Shown piece after piece: positions 21,483-30,680 of a stretch of 43,160 nucleotides of DNA. A model generated the notes under the pieces. It was not told where the DNA came from. It worked only from the letters and a program-made list of their open reading frames with translations, and ran no database searches. The stretch covers positions 1-43,160 of the forward strand of contig CAIUPP010000009.1 in NCBI GenBank assembly GCA_903901045.1, given 5' to 3'. A program made the translations under genes and the position numbers. The DNA comes from an uncultured Planctomycetota bacterium. GTDB taxonomy: Bacteria > Planctomycetota > Brocadiia > CAIUPP01. Every line of letters starts with the position of its first letter. The first letter of the stretch is position 1.

Positions 21483-23659
21483 ACGAACTCCTCCAGGCCG
21501 CCCAATACTACCTGAGCCGGGGCTGGATGCCCGTCTACGTGCCGCCCGGGGTGAAGGGACCCAGCCGGCATGGCTGGGAGAAGCTGCGCCTGACCGAATC
21601 GGAGCTGCCCAGGCACTTCAACCGTCCCGGCAACATTGGGATCATCCTGGGGGATGCCAGCCACAACTTGGTGGACGTGGACCTGGACTGCCCTGAGGCG
21701 CTGGAACTGGCCGACCAATACCTCCCGGCCACCCCTGCGGTCACCGGGCGTCCGAGCGCGCCGCGGTCGCACCGCTGGTACGTCTCGGACGTGCCGGCGA
21801 TAAAGCAGTTCCGGGACCCCAGGACCCGGGAGATGATCATCGAGTTACGCAGCAATGGCGGACAGACCCTTGTAGGCCCCAGCCGCCACGATGAGACCGG
21901 CGAACCCTACGACTGCCTTGACGGCGAACCCGCGCACGTGCCGGCGGACGTTCTGGCAGCGGCAGTCCAGGGCATCTATGAAGCAGTCGTTCGCCGCCGG
22001 TATGGCGACATTCCCCAGAAATGCTCATCCGCGCCGCCGACAACCCCGACCCACGTGGCGGACGCCGATTCCGTCGAGCGCCGCGCGCTGGCGTACCTCC
22101 AGGCCATGCCGGCGGCCGTCAGCGGCCAGGGGGGCCACAGCGCCACGTACTCGGCCGCCACGGTCCTGGTGCATGGCTTTGCTCTATCCACTGGTCAGGC
22201 GTTCAGCATGCTCCTGGCGCACTATAACCCCCGCTGCCAGCCGCCCTGGAAGGAGAAGGAACTGCGCCACAAGGTCGAGGACGCCGCGAAGAAGCCGCAT
22301 GACAAACCCCTGGGCTGGTTGCGCGACCAGACCCCAGCCGCTGAACCGGCAGATGGCATGGACCTGTCAGGAATCATGGCAAAGGCTGTTCCACAAGATG
22401 AGCGCCCATTGGCCGCGCCTGAGGATCCCGGTCCTATTCCGGAGTCCATGCTGCGCGTCCCGGGCCTCGTCAGCGAGGTGATGGACTACACACTAGCGAC
22501 GGCGCCTTATCCGAACGTCGCGATGGCGTTCTGCGGGGCGCTGGCGGTGCAGGCCTATCTGGCCGGGCGCAAGGTGCGCGACAGCGGCGACAACCGCACG
22601 AACCTCTATCTCCTGGGCCTGGCCTACTCAGCCGCCGGCAAGGACTGGCCGCGCAAGGTCAACACGCGCATCCTTCACGAGGTCGGTCTCGCCGACGGTC
22701 TGGGAGACCGCTTCGCCTCGGGCGAGGGTATCCAGGACGCGCTCTACGTGACGCCGTCAATGCTCTTTCAGACCGACGAGATCGACGGGATGCTCCAGTC
22801 GATCAACAAGGCCAAGGACGCGCGGCATGAAAACGTCATGGGGACGGTTCTGACGCTCTATTCCGCGAGCAACACGGTCTATCCCATGCGCCGAAAGGCG
22901 GGCAAGGAACCCCCCGGAGCCGTCGACCAGCCCTCGCTAGTGATCTTCGGCACGGCGATCCCCAACCATTACTACGAGTCGCTCTCCGAGCGGATGCTCA
23001 CCAACGGCTTCTTCGCGCGCATGCTCATCGTCGAGAGCGGCCCCCGGCCCAAGGGACAGGAAGCGCGCGTCGAGGAGCTTCCGCAGCGCATCCTGGCCGC
23101 GGCCAAGTGGTGGGCGGACTTCCATCCCGGCACCGGCAACCTGGAGGACTGGCACCCGGTCCCGCGCGTCGTGGAACACACCGAAGAGGGGCGGGACCTG
23201 CTGGTCGAAGTGCGCGAAGAAGCGGACGCCGAGTATGCCAAAGCGGAACAGCGCAAGGATTCCGTCGGCACGACCGTTTGGGGGCGCGTGAACGAGCAGA
23301 CGCGCAAGCTGGCGCTGATCCATGCCCTGAGCGAGAACCACGTGGAACCCGTCATCGGCCTGGCGGCCGTGCAATGGGCGCGGGCGTTCGTCATGCACCA
23401 GACGCGCCGGATGCTCTTCATGGCCCAGAACCACGTCGCCGACAACCCCTTCCACGCCGCGTGCCTCAAGCTCCAGGAGAAGCTGCGCGAAGCGCCCGGC
23501 CGCACCTTACAGCACAGCGTACTGCTGAAACGCATGAAACTGGACGCGAAGACCTTCGCAGAGCTGATCATGACGCTCGATCAGCAGGGGGACATCGAGA
23601 TTCTCATGGCGCCGCGCGCCGGGACACCCAAACGACTCTACCGGCTGCGTGAAGTGTGA
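21479..23659 (+). CDS. Bifunctional primase-polymerase with DUF3987 domain
   Basis: GTG 21479 overlaps the previous stop; 726 residues. The N-terminal ~190 residues are a prim-pol domain: YYLSRGWMPVYVPPGVKGP, the metal-binding VDVDLD (65-70) and GGQTLVGPSRH. A primase C-terminal helical segment follows (QPPWKEKELRHKVEDAAKKP). Residues ~320-600 form a DUF3987 domain (PYPNVAMAFCGALAVQAYLA, TNLYLLGLAYSAAGKDWPRK) that resembles a degraded helicase core with A-A-G-K-D in place of a full P-loop. It is expected to prime phage replication. It is the last gene of the operon, and origin-like repeats begin three bases after its stop. Confidence 0.87.
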   Translation: MNELLQAAQYYLSRGWMPVYVPPGVKGPSRHGWEKLRLTESELPRHFNRPGNIGIILGDASHNLVDVDLDCPEALELADQYLPATPAVTGRPSAPRSHRWYVSDVPAIKQFRDPRTREMIIELRSNGGQTLVGPSRHDETGEPYDCLDGEPAHVPADVLAAAVQGIYEAVVRRRYGDIPQKCSSAPPTTPTHVADADSVERRALAYLQAMPAAVSGQGGHSATYSAATVLVHGFALSTGQAFSMLLAHYNPRCQPPWKEKELRHKVEDAAKKPHDKPLGWLRDQTPAAEPADGMDLSGIMAKAVPQDERPLAAPEDPGPIPESMLRVPGLVSEVMDYTLATAPYPNVAMAFCGALAVQAYLAGRKVRDSGDNRTNLYLLGLAYSAAGKDWPRKVNTRILHEVGLADGLGDRFASGEGIQDALYVTPSMLFQTDEIDGMLQSINKAKDARHENVMGTVLTLYSASNTVYPMRRKAGKEPPGAVDQPSLVIFGTAIPNHYYESLSERMLTNGFFARMLIVESGPRPKGQEARVEELPQRILAAAKWWADFHPGTGNLEDWHPVPRVVEHTEEGRDLLVEVREEADAEYAKAEQRKDSVGTTVWGRVNEQTRKLALIHALSENHVEPVIGLAAVQWARAFVMHQTRRMLFMAQNHVADNPFHAACLKLQEKLREAPGRTLQHSVLLKRMKLDAKTFAELIMTLDQQGDIEILMAPRAGTPKRLYRLREV

Positions 23660-23867
23660 GGGTGAAAAGTGAAACGTGAGGCTGAAATCCGGGTCGCAGG
23701 GGGTGAAAGGAGAGAAACGAGGGTGAAAGGTGAAATGCGGTTTAACCTATATAGAATATATATATCTCTTCTCCTTTCTCTCCTTTCACCCCTATCCCCC
23801 CTCACGATTTTAAGTGTGCTTTTTTGTGTGTATACGCGAGGGGGGGTGAAAGGTGGAAACGTGGGCT
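23660..23867. other. Candidate phage replication origin (repeats, palindrome, AT-rich core)
   Basis: Heptamers of the form GTGAAAN repeat at 23662, 23669, 23676 (GTGAGGC), 23703, 23723, 23730 and 23846, with an inverted CTTTCAC at 23783. An 18-bp perfect inverted repeat (GGGGTGAAAGGAGAGAAA at 23700-23717, complement at 23775-23792) flanks a 57-bp spacer containing a purely AT tract (about 23750-23765). The strand is purine-rich left of the core and pyrimidine-rich right of it. No gene fits the interval 23660-23939. The location next to the primase supports an origin; a large terminator hairpin is the alternative. Confidence 0.55.
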
Positions 23868-23939: not shown

Positions 23940-24353
23940 TCAGGCAGGTTCCATCTTGAGGAACTCTTCCGGCGTCACAATGGGGATCGGTTCGTTGGGA
24001 AAGTGCCGCGCGTTCCTGGTGAGGATGAAGTCGGCCCCGGCATGGTGCGCGGAGAAGAACTGAATGCCGTCCTCAAAGTCCGAGAACTCCGAGTCAATCG
24101 CACGCTGGATGATCTGTTCGTCCAGAGCCACGACGTGAAATATGTCCCGCAGCAACTTCAGCCCGTCGTGGGCCGTCGGGCGGTTTGCGACGCGCCGCAG
24201 CACGTAGTGGACGTTGTTGAAGCTGATCGCGGAAATGTATCCGTCGAGCGTCCCATGTTCCACGCGGGACCAGACCTCCGACGCCGCGACGCAGTGAGGC
24301 TCGCGCCGGCCCAGCACGTCCAGGAGCACGTTCGTGTCAAGGAACACTTTCAT
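23940..24353 (-). CDS. PIN-domain toxin (VapC-like)
   Basis: The 137-residue product begins MKVFLDTNVLLDVLG, with the first PIN aspartate at residue 6. Acidic residues in DSEFSDFEDGIQFFSAHHAG and the ADFILTRNARHF strand complete the PIN fold metal site. PIN toxins are ribonucleases, often cutting tRNA or rRNA. It overlaps the upstream antitoxin gene by 4 bp, the standard toxin-antitoxin layout. It reads against the phage operons and lies just beyond the origin-like region. Confidence 0.85.
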   Translation of the reverse strand: MKVFLDTNVLLDVLGRREPHCVAASEVWSRVEHGTLDGYISAISFNNVHYVLRRVANRPTAHDGLKLLRDIFHVVALDEQIIQRAIDSEFSDFEDGIQFFSAHHAGADFILTRNARHFPNEPIPIVTPEEFLKMEPA

Positions 24354-24613
24354 TTCTTGAATCCATACTTCTCAAGCAGGGATTCTTCCAGAAGCTCCCG
24401 GTCCGACTTCCCCGGCGGCAGCTTCACCAGGCCGAGCGCCTGGCGCGTGAGCGGGCCGAGTTCAGCAGTGGACTTCGTTTCCGCGCGCTTGGACATCGCC
24501 AGGACCAGCCGGCTGAACATGGCCGAGATGCTCGTCTTGTTCTTGCGCGCCAGTTGCCGGGCCTTCCGGACCACTTTCTCGTCGGCGCTGAGCGTGAGTT
24601 TTACGGTTGCCAT
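24350..24613 (-). CDS. DUF6364-type ribbon-helix-helix antitoxin
   Basis: The 87-residue product (MATVKLTLSADEKVVRKARQ, then LARKNKTSISAMFSRLVLAM) has the strand-helix-helix pattern of ribbon-helix-helix antitoxins annotated DUF6364. The C-terminal half (LPPGKSDRELLEESLLEKYG) resembles toxin-wrapping tails. It precedes the PIN gene with a 4-bp overlap and should neutralise it and repress the shared promoter through the paired palindromes at 24627-24657. Confidence 0.82.
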   Translation of the reverse strand: MATVKLTLSADEKVVRKARQLARKNKTSISAMFSRLVLAMSKRAETKSTAELGPLTRQALGLVKLPPGKSDRELLEESLLEKYGFKK

Positions 24614-24657: not shown

Positions 24658-24947
24658 CGTCCGTTTCTTGTCAAGAGCCGGATCGCGTGGGCTGTTCGGC
24701 CCCCACGCTCGCACAGGCGCGTTCGGGGCGCAACGGGCGCGTCACTGCGGGCTCAGGCGCGTGTTTGGCAAAAGGACGCGACGTGCGCGCGCTGTGCGCG
24801 TCGTGGGCGACGCACCAAGTGCCGTATCTCCGAGCAAATCGCTTAGGTACTACCTTGTCATAAGTCCTTTCAAGGCATCGGGAAGCTGTAGCCAATGAGG
24901 AGTGTCTTTCTTTTACGTGTGCATGACCTTGTTTGGAGGAGACGAAG

Positions 24948-26369
24948 ATGCAAATCGAGATGCGCAAAGTCAGTGAAATCAAGCCGTATGAGAAGAACCC
25001 GCGCCTGAACGATGGTGCCGTGGACGCGGTCGCGCGCAGCATTCAGGAGTTCGGATTCAGGCAGCCCATCGTGGTGGACGCCGACGGCGTCATCATCTGC
25101 GGCCACACCCGTTGGAAGGCAGCGCAGAAACTCGGCCTTGAAGAAGTGCCGGTCCACGTGGCCCGCGACATGGCGCCGGAGAAGGTCCGGGCGTACCGGA
25201 TCGCTGACAACAAGCTGGCAGAGATGGCGACGTGGGACATGGACCTGCTGCCGATCGAATTGACGGAACTGCAGGGGATGGACGTGGATCTGTCGCTATT
25301 GGGATTCGATGCCGATGCCTTGGCGAAGATCCTTAACCCGGACGGGACGGACGGTCAGACCGACCCGGATTCCGTGCCCGAACCAGGGGACGCGGCGGTC
25401 TCCAAGACGGGCGAGATTTATCAATTGGGCAACCACCGGCTGATGTGCGGGGACTCCGGAAGTGTGGCCGACCTTGACCTGCTCCTGGGCGGGCAGCCGG
25501 TCCATTTGGCAAACACGGACCCGCCGTACAACGTCAAAGTGGAACCGCGCAGCAACAACGCCATCGCGGCGGGGTTGTCGTCGTTTGGTGAAAACGCTTC
25601 TGCCAAGCGCCGTCACCTTTTCAAGACGATGCGCGACCCGGAGCATGAGGAGGGCGCTCCAGGACTGCGTCACCACCAGGCATTTGACCTGGCGCGCGGC
25701 AAGAGCAAGGCCCACGCCACCACGAAGAAGATGCGGCCCAAGGATCGGCCCCTGGAGAACGACTTCGTCTCCGACGAGCAGTTCGACCGGCTCCTTGATG
25801 CGTGGTTCGGCAACATCGCCCGAGTGCTCCTGCCGGGGCGCGGGTTCTACATTTGGGGCGGCTATGCCAACCTCGGCAACTACCCGCCGTTCTTGAAGAA
25901 ACATGGCCTTTACTTCAGCCAGGGGATCGTCTGGGACAAACTGCACCCGGTCCTCACCCGGAAAGATTTCATGGGCGCTTTTGAGATCTGCTTCTACGGG
26001 TGGAAGGAAGGGGCGGGCCACAAGTATTACGGCCCCAACAACGCCACGGACCTCTGGCACGTGAAGAAGGTCAACCCCGCCAGCATGATTCACCTGACCG
26101 AGAAGGCTGTGGAACTTGCCGTGCGCGCCATTCAATACTCGTCACTGATCGGCGAGAACGTCCTGGACCTCTTCGGCGGGTCGGGTTCGACCTTAATAGG
26201 CTGCGAGCAGACGGGCCGGCATGCGTTCTTGATGGAACTGGACACACTCTACTGCGACGTGATCCGCAAACGATGGGCCGAATTTGCTCATGGAGAAGGC
26301 TGCAATTGGCAAGAACTGACGCCGGTCTGTGGCGAGTCACAGGCCGTCGCCGCAGGGAGTGCCGAATGA
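24948..26369 (+). CDS. ParB-nuclease-like domain fused to DNA N6/N4 methyltransferase
   Basis: ATG 24948 is preceded by GGAGGAG; 473 residues. Residues 1-~110 are a ParB-like domain (IKPYEKNPRLND, FGFRQPIVVD, GHTRWKAAQKLG at ~52, then RAYRIADNKLAE). After a linker, residues ~160-470 are a methyltransferase: NTDPPYN at ~188-194 is the catalytic motif IV, and VLDLFGGSGSTLIG near 405 is the AdoMet site, so the motif order is catalytic-first. Such fusions are common in phages and modify phage DNA, probably against restriction. The central insert rich in K/R (RGKSKAHATTKKMRPK) may contact DNA. It overlaps the radical SAM gene by 4 bp. Confidence 0.88.
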   Translation: MQIEMRKVSEIKPYEKNPRLNDGAVDAVARSIQEFGFRQPIVVDADGVIICGHTRWKAAQKLGLEEVPVHVARDMAPEKVRAYRIADNKLAEMATWDMDLLPIELTELQGMDVDLSLLGFDADALAKILNPDGTDGQTDPDSVPEPGDAAVSKTGEIYQLGNHRLMCGDSGSVADLDLLLGGQPVHLANTDPPYNVKVEPRSNNAIAAGLSSFGENASAKRRHLFKTMRDPEHEEGAPGLRHHQAFDLARGKSKAHATTKKMRPKDRPLENDFVSDEQFDRLLDAWFGNIARVLLPGRGFYIWGGYANLGNYPPFLKKHGLYFSQGIVWDKLHPVLTRKDFMGAFEICFYGWKEGAGHKYYGPNNATDLWHVKKVNPASMIHLTEKAVELAVRAIQYSSLIGENVLDLFGGSGSTLIGCEQTGRHAFLMELDTLYCDVIRKRWAEFAHGEGCNWQELTPVCGESQAVAAGSAE

Positions 26370-27229
26370 ACACCTGGCGCAAAGGGATAGCATCCTGGAA
26401 GTGCGGCGGCACATTGTACCTGAGCGTCCCGTTCACATGGCTGCTGCCGGAAGCGGAAGCGCTGGCCCTGCAGCACAAAGGCAAGGTCATCGCTGGGGGA
26501 CCGGCGGTGGCCTTGATGGGTGCGCCGTGGGCGGACGAGACCCCGGTGGAATGCCCGTTCGACGTACTTGGGATGCACAACCCCTGTGCCACGTTCACGA
26601 CGCGCGGCTGTCCCAACCGTTGTGCATTCTGCGCCGTGCCCCGGATCGAGGGAGAGTTCCGGGAGCTGCCGTCATGGAAGCCCGCACCGCTGGTCTGCGA
26701 CAACAACCTCCTCGCGGCGAGCAAACGGCACTTTCGGCGGGTCATTAAGTCGCTGACGACATTTCCTGAAGTGGACTTCAATCAAGGATTGGACGCTCGG
26801 CTGTTCACCTGCTGGCACGCCGACCAGATCGCCCGGCTGCGGCGGGCCAAGGTGCGGTTCAGCCTGGACCACGTAGGCATGATCGGCGTGGTGGACGACG
26901 CCATTGCCACGGCGCGGGTGGCGGGGCTGAAACACTTCGGCGTGTATGTCCTGACTGGGTTCCAGGACACGCCGGAGGATGCATTCATGCGGTTGGAGCA
27001 CGTCCGGTCGCTCGGCATCCGACCCAACCCGATGCGCTACCAGCCGTTGGACACGCTGGAGCGCGATTCCTACGTCGCCCCGGGCTGGACCGACTTCGAG
27101 TTGAAGCGGATGACACGCTACTACAGTCGGCTGCGCTGGCTGGAACACATTCCGTACGCGGACTATCAACCTTCTGATCAGCCGCTATTTGCCAGCCTGC
27201 GAGGCCCGGCAACAACGGAGGTGCAATGA
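26366..27229 (+). CDS. Phage radical SAM protein
   Basis: ATG 26366 overlaps the methyltransferase stop (ATGA); 287 residues. The cluster-binding motif CPNRCAFC (C82, C86, C89) follows TTRG, a fully conserved C-x3-C-x2-C. FNQGLDARL, FSLDHVGMIG, VYVLTGFQDTPEDAF and RPNPMRYQPLD fit the strands of a small radical SAM barrel, and the ~75-residue N-terminus (SVPFTWLLPEAEAL, GGPAVALMG) resembles the preceding flavodoxin-like half of B12-binding radical SAM proteins. Coupled translation with the methyltransferase suggests a shared job, perhaps hypermodification of nucleic acid; substrate unknown. Confidence 0.78.
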   Translation: MNTWRKGIASWKCGGTLYLSVPFTWLLPEAEALALQHKGKVIAGGPAVALMGAPWADETPVECPFDVLGMHNPCATFTTRGCPNRCAFCAVPRIEGEFRELPSWKPAPLVCDNNLLAASKRHFRRVIKSLTTFPEVDFNQGLDARLFTCWHADQIARLRRAKVRFSLDHVGMIGVVDDAIATARVAGLKHFGVYVLTGFQDTPEDAFMRLEHVRSLGIRPNPMRYQPLDTLERDSYVAPGWTDFELKRMTRYYSRLRWLEHIPYADYQPSDQPLFASLRGPATTEVQ

Positions 27230-27231
27230 AC

Positions 27232-27618
27232 TCATTCCTGAGCAATCGAACGCAGGAAGGCAGCCGCGTCGCCCTTTCCGGCCCGTCCCGACGCGACGCG
27301 CAACGCGATGTCGACCAGGCCGTCTTCGTCCGCTTCCACCGACACGCCGTTCATCGCCAGGAAGATGATCGCGGCGGCCGCCCCCGTTCGCTTGTTGCCG
27401 TCGATGAACGGGTGGTTCTGGACGATGTGGTAGAGATAGGCGGCGGCCATCTCGAACAGATCCGTGTGCAGGAAATGACCGCCGAAGGATGCCTGCGGCA
27501 TGGCAATGGCGGAATGAAGCATACCGGCATCCCGTATGCCCTCTTCTCCGCCGTACTGCTCAATCATGCTGCGATGAATCCGGAGGACGCGCTCGATGTC
27601 GAGAAACAAAGGAGCCAT
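27232..27618 (-). CDS. doc: Doc/Fic-family toxin (death on curing)
   Basis: The 128-residue protein carries HPFIDGNKRTG (residues 69-79), the Doc variant of the Fic motif (H-x-F-x-D-G-N-K) that phosphorylates elongation factor EF-Tu in the family type member. FLDIERVLRIHRSMIEQYGG and GIRDAGMLHSAI are the typical N-terminal Doc helices. It starts 3 bp after the AbrB-type antitoxin stop and ends 2 bp from the stop of the convergent radical SAM gene. Confidence 0.88.
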   Translation of the reverse strand: MAPLFLDIERVLRIHRSMIEQYGGEEGIRDAGMLHSAIAMPQASFGGHFLHTDLFEMAAAYLYHIVQNHPFIDGNKRTGAAAAIIFLAMNGVSVEADEDGLVDIALRVASGRAGKGDAAAFLRSIAQE

Positions 27619-27621
27619 GGC

Positions 27622-27849
27622 TCACTCCGCCAGTTTCTTCAAGGCGCGTCCGAAACGCGTGTGGACCATCGCCAGCGCGTCCTTGAACTTCTTCTCTTCC
27701 CCGGGGTTTCGCACCGGGCTGAGGAGAAGCGACTGGCCGTCGGTCACGACCTCGAATGGGGTCTGCGGAGTGGCGTGGAGAAGCTCCAGGATCGGCTTGT
27801 CGATGACCAGAGCGTAACTGTTCCCGTGCTTGCACAGCGTCTTGCGCAT
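27622..27849 (-). CDS. AbrB/MazE-like antitoxin of the Doc module
   Basis: The 75-residue protein reads MRKTLCKHGNSYALVIDKPI then LELLHATPQTPFEVVTDGQS and LLLSPVR, the swapped-hairpin AbrB/SpoVT DNA-binding pattern. The C-terminal helix (KFKDALAMVHTRFGRALKKL) would mask the Doc active site. Phd is the better known partner of Doc, but AbrB-type partners are common. A 26-bp imperfect palindrome lies 22 bp upstream of its ATG. Confidence 0.82.
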   Translation of the reverse strand: MRKTLCKHGNSYALVIDKPILELLHATPQTPFEVVTDGQSLLLSPVRNPGEEKKFKDALAMVHTRFGRALKKLAE

Positions 27850-27871
27850 GGCTCATTCCTCCAAGAAAGGT

Positions 27872-27897
27872 TCTACCATAGTATATACGATGATAGA
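27872..27897 (-). promoter_or_regulatory. Palindromic operator of the Doc module
   Basis: A 26-bp imperfect palindrome, centred on GTATATAC, with outer arms TCTA/TAGA and inner CAT/ATG; two base pairs are mismatched. It lies just upstream of the antitoxin start and probably binds the AbrB-type dimer for autorepression. Confidence 0.65.
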
Positions 27898-27914
27898 CCC
27901 GCTGGCAAGAGAGA

Positions 27915-27938
27915 ACGCCCCCGCAACGGCGGGGGCGT
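27915..27938 (-). terminator. Terminator of the minus-strand small-gene cassette
   Basis: ACGCCCCCGC and GCGGGGGCGT form a perfect 10-bp stem with a 4-nt loop, 25 bp beyond the stop of the gene at 27964-28608. Read on the minus strand it is followed by TCTCTCTTG, a moderately T-rich tail. Confidence 0.6.
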
Positions 27939-27963
27939 CCAGAGGCAGATGGGCGTGATGAGG

Positions 27964-28608
27964 CTACTTGGACAGTTCAAAATATCCGCGCTGAACTTTC
28001 TTGAAGCGCGCCTGGCCCCCTTTCTTCTGAATTTCGCGCAGGATCGAGGCGTACAGCGTGGCCGCCGGCGTCAGGCCCTTCCCGAACTCATAGAGATGCG
28101 AACTGCGCATCTCGTTGATGATCTGCGGGCAGTTCATCGGGACCTTCATCTTCGTCAGGACGGCCACGGCGGCGTCCAGAAGGCCCGTCTTCTTGGAAGC
28201 GCGTTCCGCCGTCGTTTTGGTGGTCTTGGTCGTCGTGGACTTGGCGGCGGCCGTCGGAGCGATCTCAGCGCCCTTCGCGACTGGTTTGCCTGGGGCCGGG
28301 CTGAGGCGCGCCGGGTCGGCGATCTTGATGGTCTTGTTCGTCGCCACCGTCTTCAGGGTGATCGCCCCGACTGCCGGGGCCGAGACCGCCGTCACGCGCA
28401 CGTCGTTGCGTCCGATCTTGCACAAGTACTCCTGCCCGATCTTGACTTCGCTCTTCTTCACGGCACACTCCTCCTCGTCATTGGGGTTCGCGGGGACCGA
28501 GCGCGCCGCCGCCGCTTCTGCGGCAGCCCTTCGAGCGCGCATGGCCATCTCGAACCGATCCGCCGGCAGCGTCGCAAAATACGCCGGCACGTTCAGCAGT
28601 GTTTCCAC
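27964..28608 (-). CDS. HARE-HTH domain protein
   Basis: The 214-residue product has three parts. Residues 50-~100 (VKKSEVKIGQEYLCKIG, then VRVTAVS) are a small beta-barrel-like domain. A low-complexity Ala/Lys/Thr linker follows (AKSTTTKTTKTTAERASKKT). Residues ~140-214 form a HARE-HTH winged helix (LLDAAVAVLTKMKVPMNCPQ then IINEMRSSHLYEFG and FKKVQRGYFEL), a DNA-binding domain found with chromatin and restriction proteins. A GTG at 28461 with GAGGAG upstream is a good alternative start and would fit related phage proteins better. It is the last gene of the minus-strand cassette; role unknown. Confidence 0.7.
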   Translation of the reverse strand: METLLNVPAYFATLPADRFEMAMRARRAAAEAAAARSVPANPNDEEECAVKKSEVKIGQEYLCKIGRNDVRVTAVSAPAVGAITLKTVATNKTIKIADPARLSPAPGKPVAKGAEIAPTAAAKSTTTKTTKTTAERASKKTGLLDAAVAVLTKMKVPMNCPQIINEMRSSHLYEFGKGLTPAATLYASILREIQKKGGQARFKKVQRGYFELSK

Positions 28609-28623
28609 CAGCCTTCGCTCCTT

Positions 28624-28923
28624 TCAGTTGTTACGACCGTCTACCCACGCCACTACGTATGCTTTGTGCCTGGGGTTAACCGTGCGGTACTCGACTACGT
28701 CGCCCCGAGATGGCTGGTCGCCGTCGAGGGACACCACGTTGGAGAGCAGGATGCCGATGCCCGCGTTATGGTCGCCGTCGGCGATGAGCACCCAGACCCC
28801 CTCGCTCCCTCCCGCCGTGTCTCCAGGACGTTCGAAGAGCAACACCTTTACGATGCGGTCGAGGCCGAGGTTGTTCATGCGCTTCGCGATCTGCTTCTTC
28901 GTCATGTGCGGCCACACTTTCAT
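28624..28923 (-). CDS. Hypothetical protein in minus-strand cassette
   Basis: Ninety-nine residues, MKVWPHMTKKQIAKRMNNLG with a Lys-rich amphipathic N-terminus, then beta-rich sequence (RIVKVLLFER, EGVWVLIADGDH, GDVVEYRTVN, KAYVVAWVDG). I do not recognise a family. Spacing is 15 bp to the downstream HARE-HTH gene and 3 bp from the upstream gene, so it is co-transcribed. Soluble and probably small-fold. Confidence 0.6.
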   Translation of the reverse strand: MKVWPHMTKKQIAKRMNNLGLDRIVKVLLFERPGDTAGGSEGVWVLIADGDHNAGIGILLSNVVSLDGDQPSRGDVVEYRTVNPRHKAYVVAWVDGRNN

Positions 28924-28926
28924 CGT

Positions 28927-29154
28927 TCACCTGCCTTTCTTGGCGGGGATCAGTTGACGGACCTCGTAGTAGTGGAAGGGCCTGCCGGTCCTGGTATAGA
29001 AGCCCGTGATCTCCACGAGGTTCACCAGCGCGCCCTTGGCGCGCAACCGGCGCAGGCCGGTGAGGGCGTCCTTCTCGCTCTTCCTCTTCAGGACGGTCTT
29101 CACCCCGGAGTTGTCCGTTCTGCGCTGCCCATTCCTGACGGCGTTTGCTCTCAT
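28927..29154 (-). CDS. Hypothetical small basic protein
   Basis: Seventy-five residues, strongly basic (MRANAVRNGQRRTDNSGVKT, KSEKDALTGLRRLRAKG) with a beta-hairpin-like end (NLVEITGFYTRTGRPFHYYE then VRQLIPAKKGR). No known family was recognised; the charge suggests nucleic acid contact. It is separated by only 3 bp from each neighbouring stop/start, which supports it as a real cistron. Confidence 0.55.
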   Translation of the reverse strand: MRANAVRNGQRRTDNSGVKTVLKRKSEKDALTGLRRLRAKGALVNLVEITGFYTRTGRPFHYYEVRQLIPAKKGR

Positions 29155-29157
29155 GAC

Positions 29158-29406
29158 TTACTTCCTCCCCCGGCGCACTGCCGCCAGGCGCTTCTCGATA
29201 AACGCCTCGTCCTGCCGGGCGAGGAAGGCCAGCGTCTCGACAAGACCTTCACGAACGTGCGCCATCGAACCCACGTGCGCCCAGTTCACCCCGTCGTTCC
29301 GGGCATGCTCTGCGGCGTGCGTCACCTCCTCACGGAGAAGGTCAAGCAAGCCTTCGATGTCACCCCGGTTCCTCTGATATGCCTCGTTTGCCGTCCGCTT
29401 CGCCAT
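29158..29406 (-). CDS. Hypothetical helical protein
   Basis: Eighty-two residues, almost entirely helical: DIEGLLDLLREEVTHAAEHA, NWAHVGSMAHVREGLVETLA, FLARQDEAFIEKRLAAVRRG. The NW-x-x-V-G-x-x-x-H-V-R-E pattern recurs in uncharacterised small proteins of planctomycete phages as far as I recall. Ribosome site GGAAA precedes the ATG. Function unknown. Confidence 0.6.
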   Translation of the reverse strand: MAKRTANEAYQRNRGDIEGLLDLLREEVTHAAEHARNDGVNWAHVGSMAHVREGLVETLAFLARQDEAFIEKRLAAVRRGRK

Positions 29407-29430
29407 CGTCGTTTCCTTTCGGTTGGTCCT

Positions 29431-29781
29431 TCAAGCGTCCAGCGCGATCGGCTGGCCCTGCTCGTCGCGGACGATGATGCCCTGTCGTTGCGCGAGGCGG
29501 ATCGAGTCCTCGCTCATCATGTTGCCGAACCCCTCTTCCTCGACCGTGACGGCAACATCCGCCAGGGTGGTCACGTCCACCTTCTTCTCGGCGCTATTGA
29601 ACGTCGTCTTCGTCCTGTAGTTGTACGGATCGGCGTAACGCGCATCCCTGAATGCCTGCGCCACTCGCTCGGCCGCTTCCGGACTCAGGTAGCGGCCCAC
29701 GACGCTGGACATGTTGCTCTCGCCGGAGTTGTTGACCACAACCTTCCACGTCTTCACCCAGAGGCGTTCCTTCTTTGCCAT
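29431..29781 (-). CDS. Hypothetical protein in minus-strand cassette
   Basis: One hundred sixteen residues: MAKKERLWVKTWKVVVNNSG, a predicted helix YLSPEAAERVAQAFRDARYA, then TLADVAVTVEEEG and RQGIIVRDEQGQPIALDA. Alpha/beta composition with no membrane segment. No family recognised. GGGAAGG lies at good spacing before the ATG, and it stands 12 bp from the upstream cistron. Confidence 0.6.
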   Translation of the reverse strand: MAKKERLWVKTWKVVVNNSGESNMSSVVGRYLSPEAAERVAQAFRDARYADPYNYRTKTTFNSAEKKVDVTTLADVAVTVEEEGFGNMMSEDSIRLAQRQGIIVRDEQGQPIALDA

Positions 29782-29793
29782 AATCCTTCCCTT

Positions 29794-30054
29794 TCATTCA
29801 GGAACCGAAACCCAGACCTCGCGGCCGTCGCGCGTGACGTGCCGGTACGTCACCACCCAGTAGTTGCGCCCGGCCATGTCGGCCAGCGCGTCCATCGTCC
29901 TCGCCGTGGCGATCACCCCTTTGAGGGAGCGCATGGCGTAGAGGCTTCTCATCCGCGCCGATCCCCTGGCGATGGGCCTATAGATGCGCACCTCCAGGCC
30001 CAGGTATCCCCAAGGCTCCCTCTGGTACTTCCCATCCACGTGCAGGTAGTTCAT
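29794..30054 (-). CDS. Hypothetical protein in minus-strand cassette
   Basis: Eighty-six residues: MNYLHVDGKYQREPWGYLGL, EVRIYRPIARGSARMRSLYA, a helix TMDALADMAG and a final beta pair YWVVTYRHVTRDGREVWVSV. No family recognised. AAAGGAAA precedes the ATG, and 12 bp separate it from both neighbours, the same spacing as the other members of this operon. Confidence 0.58.
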   Translation of the reverse strand: MNYLHVDGKYQREPWGYLGLEVRIYRPIARGSARMRSLYAMRSLKGVIATARTMDALADMAGRNYWVVTYRHVTRDGREVWVSVPE

Positions 30055-30066
30055 CGCGGTTTCCTT

Positions 30067-30315
30067 TCAGAGGCATGCGGTCAGTGTGATCTTGCCCTGG
30101 CGCGCCATCGAGTGTTCGCCGTTGGTCGGATGCCAGCCGACGTAGGCATAACGGCGACCCACCTCAGCCAGCCTTCCGCCGCGAAGCGTCAGAAGGTTCT
30201 CGTCAACGTACACGGTCACGCGGCCATACCTGCGCGGGAGCCTCGCGCCCACCGGAAGGCTGTAGACCTTCCCATTCTTCCTGCGTTCCAGCCATCGTTT
30301 CTGCGCTGCGTTCAT
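30067..30315 (-). CDS. Hypothetical basic protein, first gene of the cassette
   Basis: I chose the ATG at 30315 (82 residues) because AAAGGA precedes it and upstream codons look non-coding. The protein reads MNAAQKRWLERRKNGKVYSL, VYVDENLLTLRGGRLAEVG and RRYAYVGWHPTNGEHSMARQ. It is basic and beta-rich with no recognised domain. As the first cistron of the divergent minus-strand operon it faces the plus-strand packaging genes across a 167-bp intergenic region (30316-30482), which must hold promoters for both directions; no clear consensus was found there. Confidence 0.58.
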   Translation of the reverse strand: MNAAQKRWLERRKNGKVYSLPVGARLPRRYGRVTVYVDENLLTLRGGRLAEVGRRYAYVGWHPTNGEHSMARQGKITLTACL

Positions 30316-30482
30316 TGCGTTGTCCTTTCTGTAACATGCTGTCCAGCAATGCATTACACACATGAGGCCATGATTCCGCAGGAACATCCACTGAATTCCT
30401 GGAAATTCCGCATGCCCCATGCTTCGCAGTCATTGGGAGTTATGACTTCGGTGAAAGATTCCCTGAAAGGGGGCCTGCGTCC

Positions 30483-30680
30483 ATGACCGAGAAACTGCAA
30501 CCCACGTCCCTGAGCATGGAGCATGCGGCGCGGTTATTGAGCGCCGTCGGCGGCAGGACCGTCACGGCGGAGATGATCGCACGCGACACTGACAGCGGCG
30601 CGCCCGTTAATTCCGACGGCACGCTCAACCTGGTCCATTACGCCGCATGGCTGGCGAAAGCGCATGCCCATGGCAGTTGA
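30483..30680 (+). CDS. Small helix-turn-helix-like protein upstream of terminase
   Basis: Sixty-five residues, MTEKLQPTSLSMEHAARLLS then AEMIARDTDSGAPVNSDGTL and NLVHYAAWLAKAH. The spacing of its helices and the ending D-G-T-L-N-L-V-x-Y-x-A-W-L match the N-terminal ~60 residues of the terminase encoded next (LVRLLNSTPLGAVI ... DGKTVDLFRYVAWL). It overlaps the terminase start by 17 bp. It may be a DNA-recognition subunit, i.e. a minimal small terminase; this is an inference. Confidence 0.6.
   Translation: MTEKLQPTSLSMEHAARLLSAVGGRTVTAEMIARDTDSGAPVNSDGTLNLVHYAAWLAKAHAHGS

Follow-up and report, generated by a model that had tools for sequence, protein, structure and literature searches.

What is the function of the repeat array that stands between a primase gene and a convergent toxin gene in this phage genome, and which protein reads it? 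The window, by which we mean the whole stretch of 43,160 nucleotides that was analysed, is a tailed-phage contig encoding terminase, portal, head, decoration and major tail proteins, which rules out a satellite without virion genes of its own. Its replication module comprises a Sak4-like annealing protein, RusA, a helicase and a Prim-Pol/DUF3987 primase, and no terminal repeat was found in the window. The array spans roughly 200 nt behind the primase gene. Directly behind the array and convergent with the primase are the genes of a PIN-domain toxin and a DUF6364 antitoxin (23940-24613, minus strand), and a ParB_N domain fused to an N6/N4 DNA methyltransferase is encoded at 24933-26369. A 1086-aa open frame (27226-30486) between the methyltransferase and the terminase has no Pfam, PHROG or PADLOC match. 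Overall, the array very probably serves as the phage's replication origin and is read by the product of the primase gene directly upstream; this interpretation is well supported, short of proof.

The primase, annotated by PHROG as a DNA primase, carries a Prim-Pol domain at residues 8-155 (Pfam PF09250, 2e-15) and DUF3987 (Pfam PF13148, 7.5e-9). Pfam gives these two domains only, and a Rep_3-type initiator was ruled out for this gene. An MCM-like AAA+ ATPase occupies residues 328-647 of the AlphaFold2 model (pLDDT 89). The best structural match of this part is an MCM AAA+ domain (Z 17), while the SF3 helicase AAV Rep40 is a weak Foldseek match to the primase model. The last 70 residues are confidently modelled as a winged helix consisting of helices H1 (657-671), H2 (679-686) and H3 (690-703) and a wing (712-717), and this modelled domain matches many DNA-binding winged helices with Z scores of about 10-11. 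A search of PDB sequences with the primase family profile returned no match at E up to 0.1. As modelled, the one-chain combination of Prim-Pol, AAA+ and winged helix resembles MCM with its C-terminal winged helix. The assembly contains another Prim-Pol gene (G000:C80:2294-3262, L103), which shares 66% identity across the N-terminal 323 residues and has a different C-terminal part. A helicase role has been predicted for DUF3987, and origin recognition has been proposed for the winged helices of Prim-Pol proteins (PMC5862659).

The array is composed of direct and inverted iterons, an AT core and two inverted repeats (Table 1). A sequence-only reading of this DNA had placed three GTGAAAN heptamers at 23662-23682, just past the primase stop. 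Their position is confirmed, with the stop codon (23657-23659) ending two bases before 23662, but the third heptamer is degenerate (GTGAAAA-GTGAAAC-GTGAGGC) and the first iterons already fall within the 3' end of the gene. The perfect inverted repeat of 18 bp described at 23700-23717/23775-23792 (GGGGTGAAAGGAGAGAAA) is exact and reaches 22 nt at 95%. The tract between its arms had been called AT-only; it is AT-rich, but a single G breaks the AT run, which reads TATATA-G-AATATATATAT. The coordinates given there were otherwise correct, although a further C/G-rich inverted repeat (arms 23796-23806/23835-23845, conserved in sequence) and a right iteron follow beyond the inverted repeat noted there. 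GC skew, to which the same reading had pointed as a check, has no extremum at 23.75 kb and lends the origin reading no support.

Table 1. Coordinates of the primase gene, the array and their parts in the window.
Feature	Position	Strand	Basis or remark
Primase initiator gene, Prim-Pol + DUF3987 + C-terminal winged helix	21479..23659	+	Pfam, PHROG, AlphaFold2
Winged-helix coding part, residues 657-723	23447..23647	+	AlphaFold2; structure matches
Codon of residue 680 (S), co-varies with iteron bases 5-6	23516..23518	+	
Codons of wing residues 713-716 (RAGT), co-vary with iteron bases 7-9	23615..23626	+	
Left iteron block	23649..23685	+	sequence
Left-block iteron GTGAAGTGTG	23649	+	inside primase gene
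Left-block iteron GTGAGGGTGA	23656-23665	+	degenerate; includes primase stop codon
Left-block iteron GTGAAAAGTG	23662	+	
Left-block iteron GTGAAACGTG	23669	+	
Left-block iteron GTGAGGCTGA	23676	+	degenerate
Left arm of 22-nt inverted repeat (23700-23721) plus iterons	23700..23739	+	
Iteron GTGAAAGGAG of segment 23700..23739	23703	+	
Iteron GTGAAAGGTG of segment 23700..23739	23723	+	
Iteron GTGAAATGCG of segment 23700..23739	23730	+	
AT core TATATAGAATATATATAT, presumed melting site	23748..23765		
Pyrimidine tract CTCTTCTCCTTTC, conserved as CTCTCTCTTCTT	23766..23778		scaffold consensus
Right arm of inverted repeat with inverted iteron GTGAAAGGAG (23789-23780)	23771..23792	-	
C/G-rich inverted repeat CCCCCCTCACG ... 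CGCGAGGGGGG	23796..23845		loop containing GTGTGT
Right direct iterons GTGAAAGGTGGAAACGTGG	23846..23864	+	

The repeats and the inverted repeat are unlikely to be chance products. GTGAAA is present in seven copies within 215 nt, the top count for any 6-mer in any 215-nt stretch of the whole window, and 1000 dinucleotide shuffles yielded at most five copies and inverted repeats of at most 11 bp versus the 18 bp observed. The 4.77-Mb host assembly contains a single copy of the array. An exact scan of the genome contigs for 37 core bases gave no match, and relatives of the array were revealed only by protein-guided searches.

Primase searches of viral and bacterial contigs returned several hundred loci, the bacterial hosts being mostly Planctomycetota, and 216 unique loci in which both the primase C-terminus and downstream DNA are present were retained. 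Their recurrent layout has the consensus order direct iterons, GCGTAA-like link, AT core, pyrimidine tract (CTCTCTCTT), inverted iteron, C/G hairpin (CCCCCTCGCG ... CGCGAGGGGG) and direct iteron. A scaffold HMM seeded with 31 loci matched 151 of the 185 non-seed loci scanned (E<1e-3), and 179 of 182 matches lie no more than 450 nt past the primase stop. The match is weak or absent in 34 loci, in many of them because the iteron word differs, and the HMM finds nothing in L050 or L276 within the DNA examined, the winged helices of these two being typical. Independently of the HMM, at least four copies of one 7-mer follow the primase in 179 of 216 loci compared with 354 of 3399 control windows (10%). 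The density of iteron cores is 18.3 per kb in the array and 0.33 per kb elsewhere in the same loci, a 55-fold difference, and the core has an average AT fraction of 0.72 as opposed to 0.37 in the gene (133 loci). Exact copies of the left direct, inverted and right direct iterons occur together in 97 of 133 loci. In three loci the array is displaced by 1.6-1.95 kb, past intervening open frames. The inverted and right iterons of most loci form a 20-nt double unit, GGTGAAAG-N3-GAAAGAAG (alignment columns 63-82 and 131-148), with a spacing of about 10 nt, as if one helix face bound two winged helices. The suggestion that iterons flanking an unwinding element mark a replication origin is supported, the layout being kept beside most primase homologues. 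The expectation of finding the same repeats there was borne out for the layout but not for the heptamer, which differs from locus to locus.

An alternative function is that of a primase-bound cis site like crr of P4, at which the winged helix would load the helicase while synthesis starts elsewhere. The crr of P4, with its GGTGAACA repeats, lies 45 nt past the alpha stop, and the annotated ori is found about 2 kb past the opposite end of the alpha gene. However, P4 possesses two iteron clusters and the window one. The scaffold scan shows no second site, nor is a second distinct site present in any of the 72 loci with a second scaffold HMM match, and the array includes an AT core. We consider such a site unlikely and, by analogy with known systems, infer origin function rather than that of a loading or cis-required site.

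Each locus or clade has an iteron word of its own (for example GTGAAACGTG, GTGAAAGAAG, GTGAAACTTG, GTGAAGGAAG, GTGAAAGATT and GTGACGGATT), and quite different words such as CAATAAG and GGACAAAAGG are found as well, with the copies in one locus sharing the word in both orientations. Covariation with the primase was analysed in 140 loci with a robust iteron; extraction favoured GTGA-initial words, and k-mer counts were inspected by eye for words that start differently. Iteron bases 5-6 go with residue 680, at the beginning of helix 2, while bases 7-9 go with wing residue 716 and, alongside it, residue 713. Serine at 680 is associated with GTGAAA, glutamine with AG (GTGAAG, 11/11) and arginine or asparagine with CG (GTGACG, 17/18). 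At position 716, arginine is associated with GAAG/GAGG-type iterons, lysine with GATT/GATC (21/21), tryptophan with C(T/A)T (17/17) and serine or threonine with xGTG. The window obeys both rules, combining T716 and S680 with GTGAAA(A/C/G)GTG, and so do several non-GTGA words, for example AAGGATT in Q680/K716 loci. Among loci fetched later, most of which are close relatives, the rules hold in 10/10 cases for residue 680 and in 8/10 for residue 716.

The signal is located at the C-terminus, where the last 52 of about 440 aligned residues contain 68 of the 72 columns ranked highest for iteron bases 5-10. Excess mutual information between residue 716 and bases 7-9 amounts to 1.36 bits, whereas none of 201 variable columns outside the winged-helix domain exceeds 0.49 bits. 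Phylogenetically independent pairs were drawn from a core tree built with FastTree without the winged helix. They gave 14 same and 0 opposite for R716 (p=1.2e-4), 10/0 informative pairs for W716 and 8/0 for R/N680, with Q680-AG alone short of significance (p=0.125), all of these p-values being exploratory because the rules were chosen after the data were seen. Among 105 columns put through the independent-pair test, residue 716 scores highest and residue 713 next. On the 140-locus tree, residue 716 and iteron bases 8-9 change about 44 and 48 times, respectively. The heptamer changes together with the adjacent primase winged helix, which points to the primase as the binder, and the covariation strongly suggests that the winged helix binds the iterons. 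For the present primase family, it also lends support to the proposal that the Prim-Pol winged helix recognises the origin (PMC5862659). Elements residing together in one genome mostly have different iterons (7/8 groups), a difference not counted as evidence because random pairs would mostly differ too.

The winged helix and the array are no more than about 300 nt apart and might be inherited or recombined as neighbours, leading to correlation without contact. All three iteron groups (left, inverted and right) co-vary with residues 680 and 716, whereas the AT core and hairpin that separate them do so to a much smaller degree, and the scaffold bases between iteron copies correlate far less with these residues. 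Helix 1 of the same winged-helix domain shows little association with the iteron, and particular residues track particular bases, in order. Simple linkage is disfavoured because conserved bases between iteron copies do not co-vary; the pattern argues against linkage as the main cause of the covariation, and we judge linkage on its own very improbable.

An RNA hairpin, terminator or attenuator closing the primase transcript would fit the placement of the array between convergent genes and the good folding of the array strand (z -5.3). Yet the terminator scan detected no intrinsic terminator, and Rfam returned only sub-threshold microRNA models that are typical of any hairpin. The arms of the C/G hairpin pair at 0.647 within a locus versus 0.635 when swapped between loci, with no pair covariation, and direct copies, which do not pair mutually, change together too, making an RNA function highly unlikely. 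Two weak promoter-like matches were also noted. In plasmids, repeat arrays occur beside ParB-domain genes, and a ParB_N domain is encoded 1.1 kb from the array, but a centromere-like partition array read by the methyltransferase carrying that domain is hardly credible given repeats that co-vary residue by base with the primase winged helix and follow the primase in relatives.

For the array as an origin, initiation would start with binding of the iterons by the C-terminal winged helix, residue 680 reading bases 5-6 and residues 713 and 716 reading bases 7-9. The primase would then load its MCM-like AAA+ ring, with the direct and inverted iterons flanking the AT core perhaps placing two opposed assemblies of this domain, upon which the AT core would melt and the exposed strands would be primed by the Prim-Pol domain. 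Initiator and iterons probably diverge together because they are neighbours, which would provide each element with a private origin specificity. On balance, we favour the view that a small number of residues in the winged helix determine the origin word, that the pair has switched dozens of times and that the origin can be predicted from the protein and vice versa. If this is true, the Prim-Pol/MCM-like family represents a natural experiment in replication-origin specificity. The analysis offers a sequence-based assignment of the probable origin, with a named candidate reader protein, for a large and experimentally little-studied group of phages with mostly Planctomycetota hosts, and the residue-to-base covariation provides a testable code for joint initiator and origin divergence, which is usually studied on a handful of plasmids.

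This mode of replication is already known from the PICI/SaPI rep-ori systems, P4 alpha and pRN1, while the primase family, the scaffold and the residue-to-base code look new. In PICIs and SaPIs the origin follows the 3' end of rep and has an AT-rich region flanked by two sets of iterons (PMC6092414); these iterons are recognised by the C-terminal domain of Rep according to a summary of SaPI Rep in PMC7581432. Similarly, the candidate origin lies directly 3' of the initiator gene, in the window as in relatives, two iteron sets flank an AT-rich region, and a C-terminal domain is the iteron reader, here predicted from covariation. In contrast, PICIs and SaPIs are satellites with DUF927 or D5-type Rep helicases, whereas the present system belongs to a tailed-phage genome, combines Prim-Pol and DUF3987 in one chain and additionally possesses a C/G hairpin and a readable residue-base code.

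P4 alpha is likewise a winged-helix initiator, whose GGTGAACA iterons surround AT-rich DNA and run in both orientations (PMC4234260), and crr is found directly behind its gene. The alpha primase is described as Toprim-type, while the window primase is a Prim-Pol (AEP) of PF09250, and the separate ori and crr clusters of P4 contrast with a single cluster here. The similarity in iteron word (GGTGAA) may be a coincidence, as the C-terminal sequences look unrelated. A literature search on the P4 iteron string and on Planctomycetes prophage origins yielded nothing useful. Joint divergence of an initiator DNA-binding domain and its iterons is also found in PLE RepA, for which the part of PMC8263062 on this system reports that the domain and the origin iterons change together and that only cognate pairs replicate. 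That account concerns another initiator family with an N-terminal RepA_N domain and semi-palindromic iterons of about 30 bp, and it describes no residue-base code.

Among named phages with distant primases, Synechococcus phage Ssp-JY40 has the same kind of array directly behind a distant DUF3987 protein (L450 3720-3970), with many CTAACCGAC/GTCGGTTAG words accompanied by TATATAAGG and CTATATATTG; no obvious array stands directly downstream of the primase in Roseobacter CRP-902 or Vibrio 1.030.O. ORF904 of the Sulfolobus plasmid pRN1 is a single protein with Prim-Pol, helicase and winged-helix parts, and pRN1 needs an element just downstream of the Prim-Pol gene that is conserved in layout and poorly so in sequence (PMC4234260). 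The window primase shares with it the one-protein combination of Prim-Pol, helicase-like ATPase and C-terminal winged helix as well as a candidate origin just downstream. The pRN1 system probably differs in its SF3 helicase, the window primase model matching MCM AAA+ best, and it has a large stem-loop without iterons, whereas the inverted repeats described here look like opposed iterons. A stem-loop has also been proposed for BIP-1, a relative of Bordetella phage BPP-1 (PMC4234260). About 500 nt past its primase, BPP-1 carries an inverted pair of tandem words, TTGCCTCGTTTGCCTCGTTTC/GAAACGAGGCAAACGAGGCAA (L452 2600-2730), that could be iterons rather than a stem-loop only. These comparisons suggest that opposed iterons may account for part of the stem-loop origins put forward for other Prim-Pol replicons.
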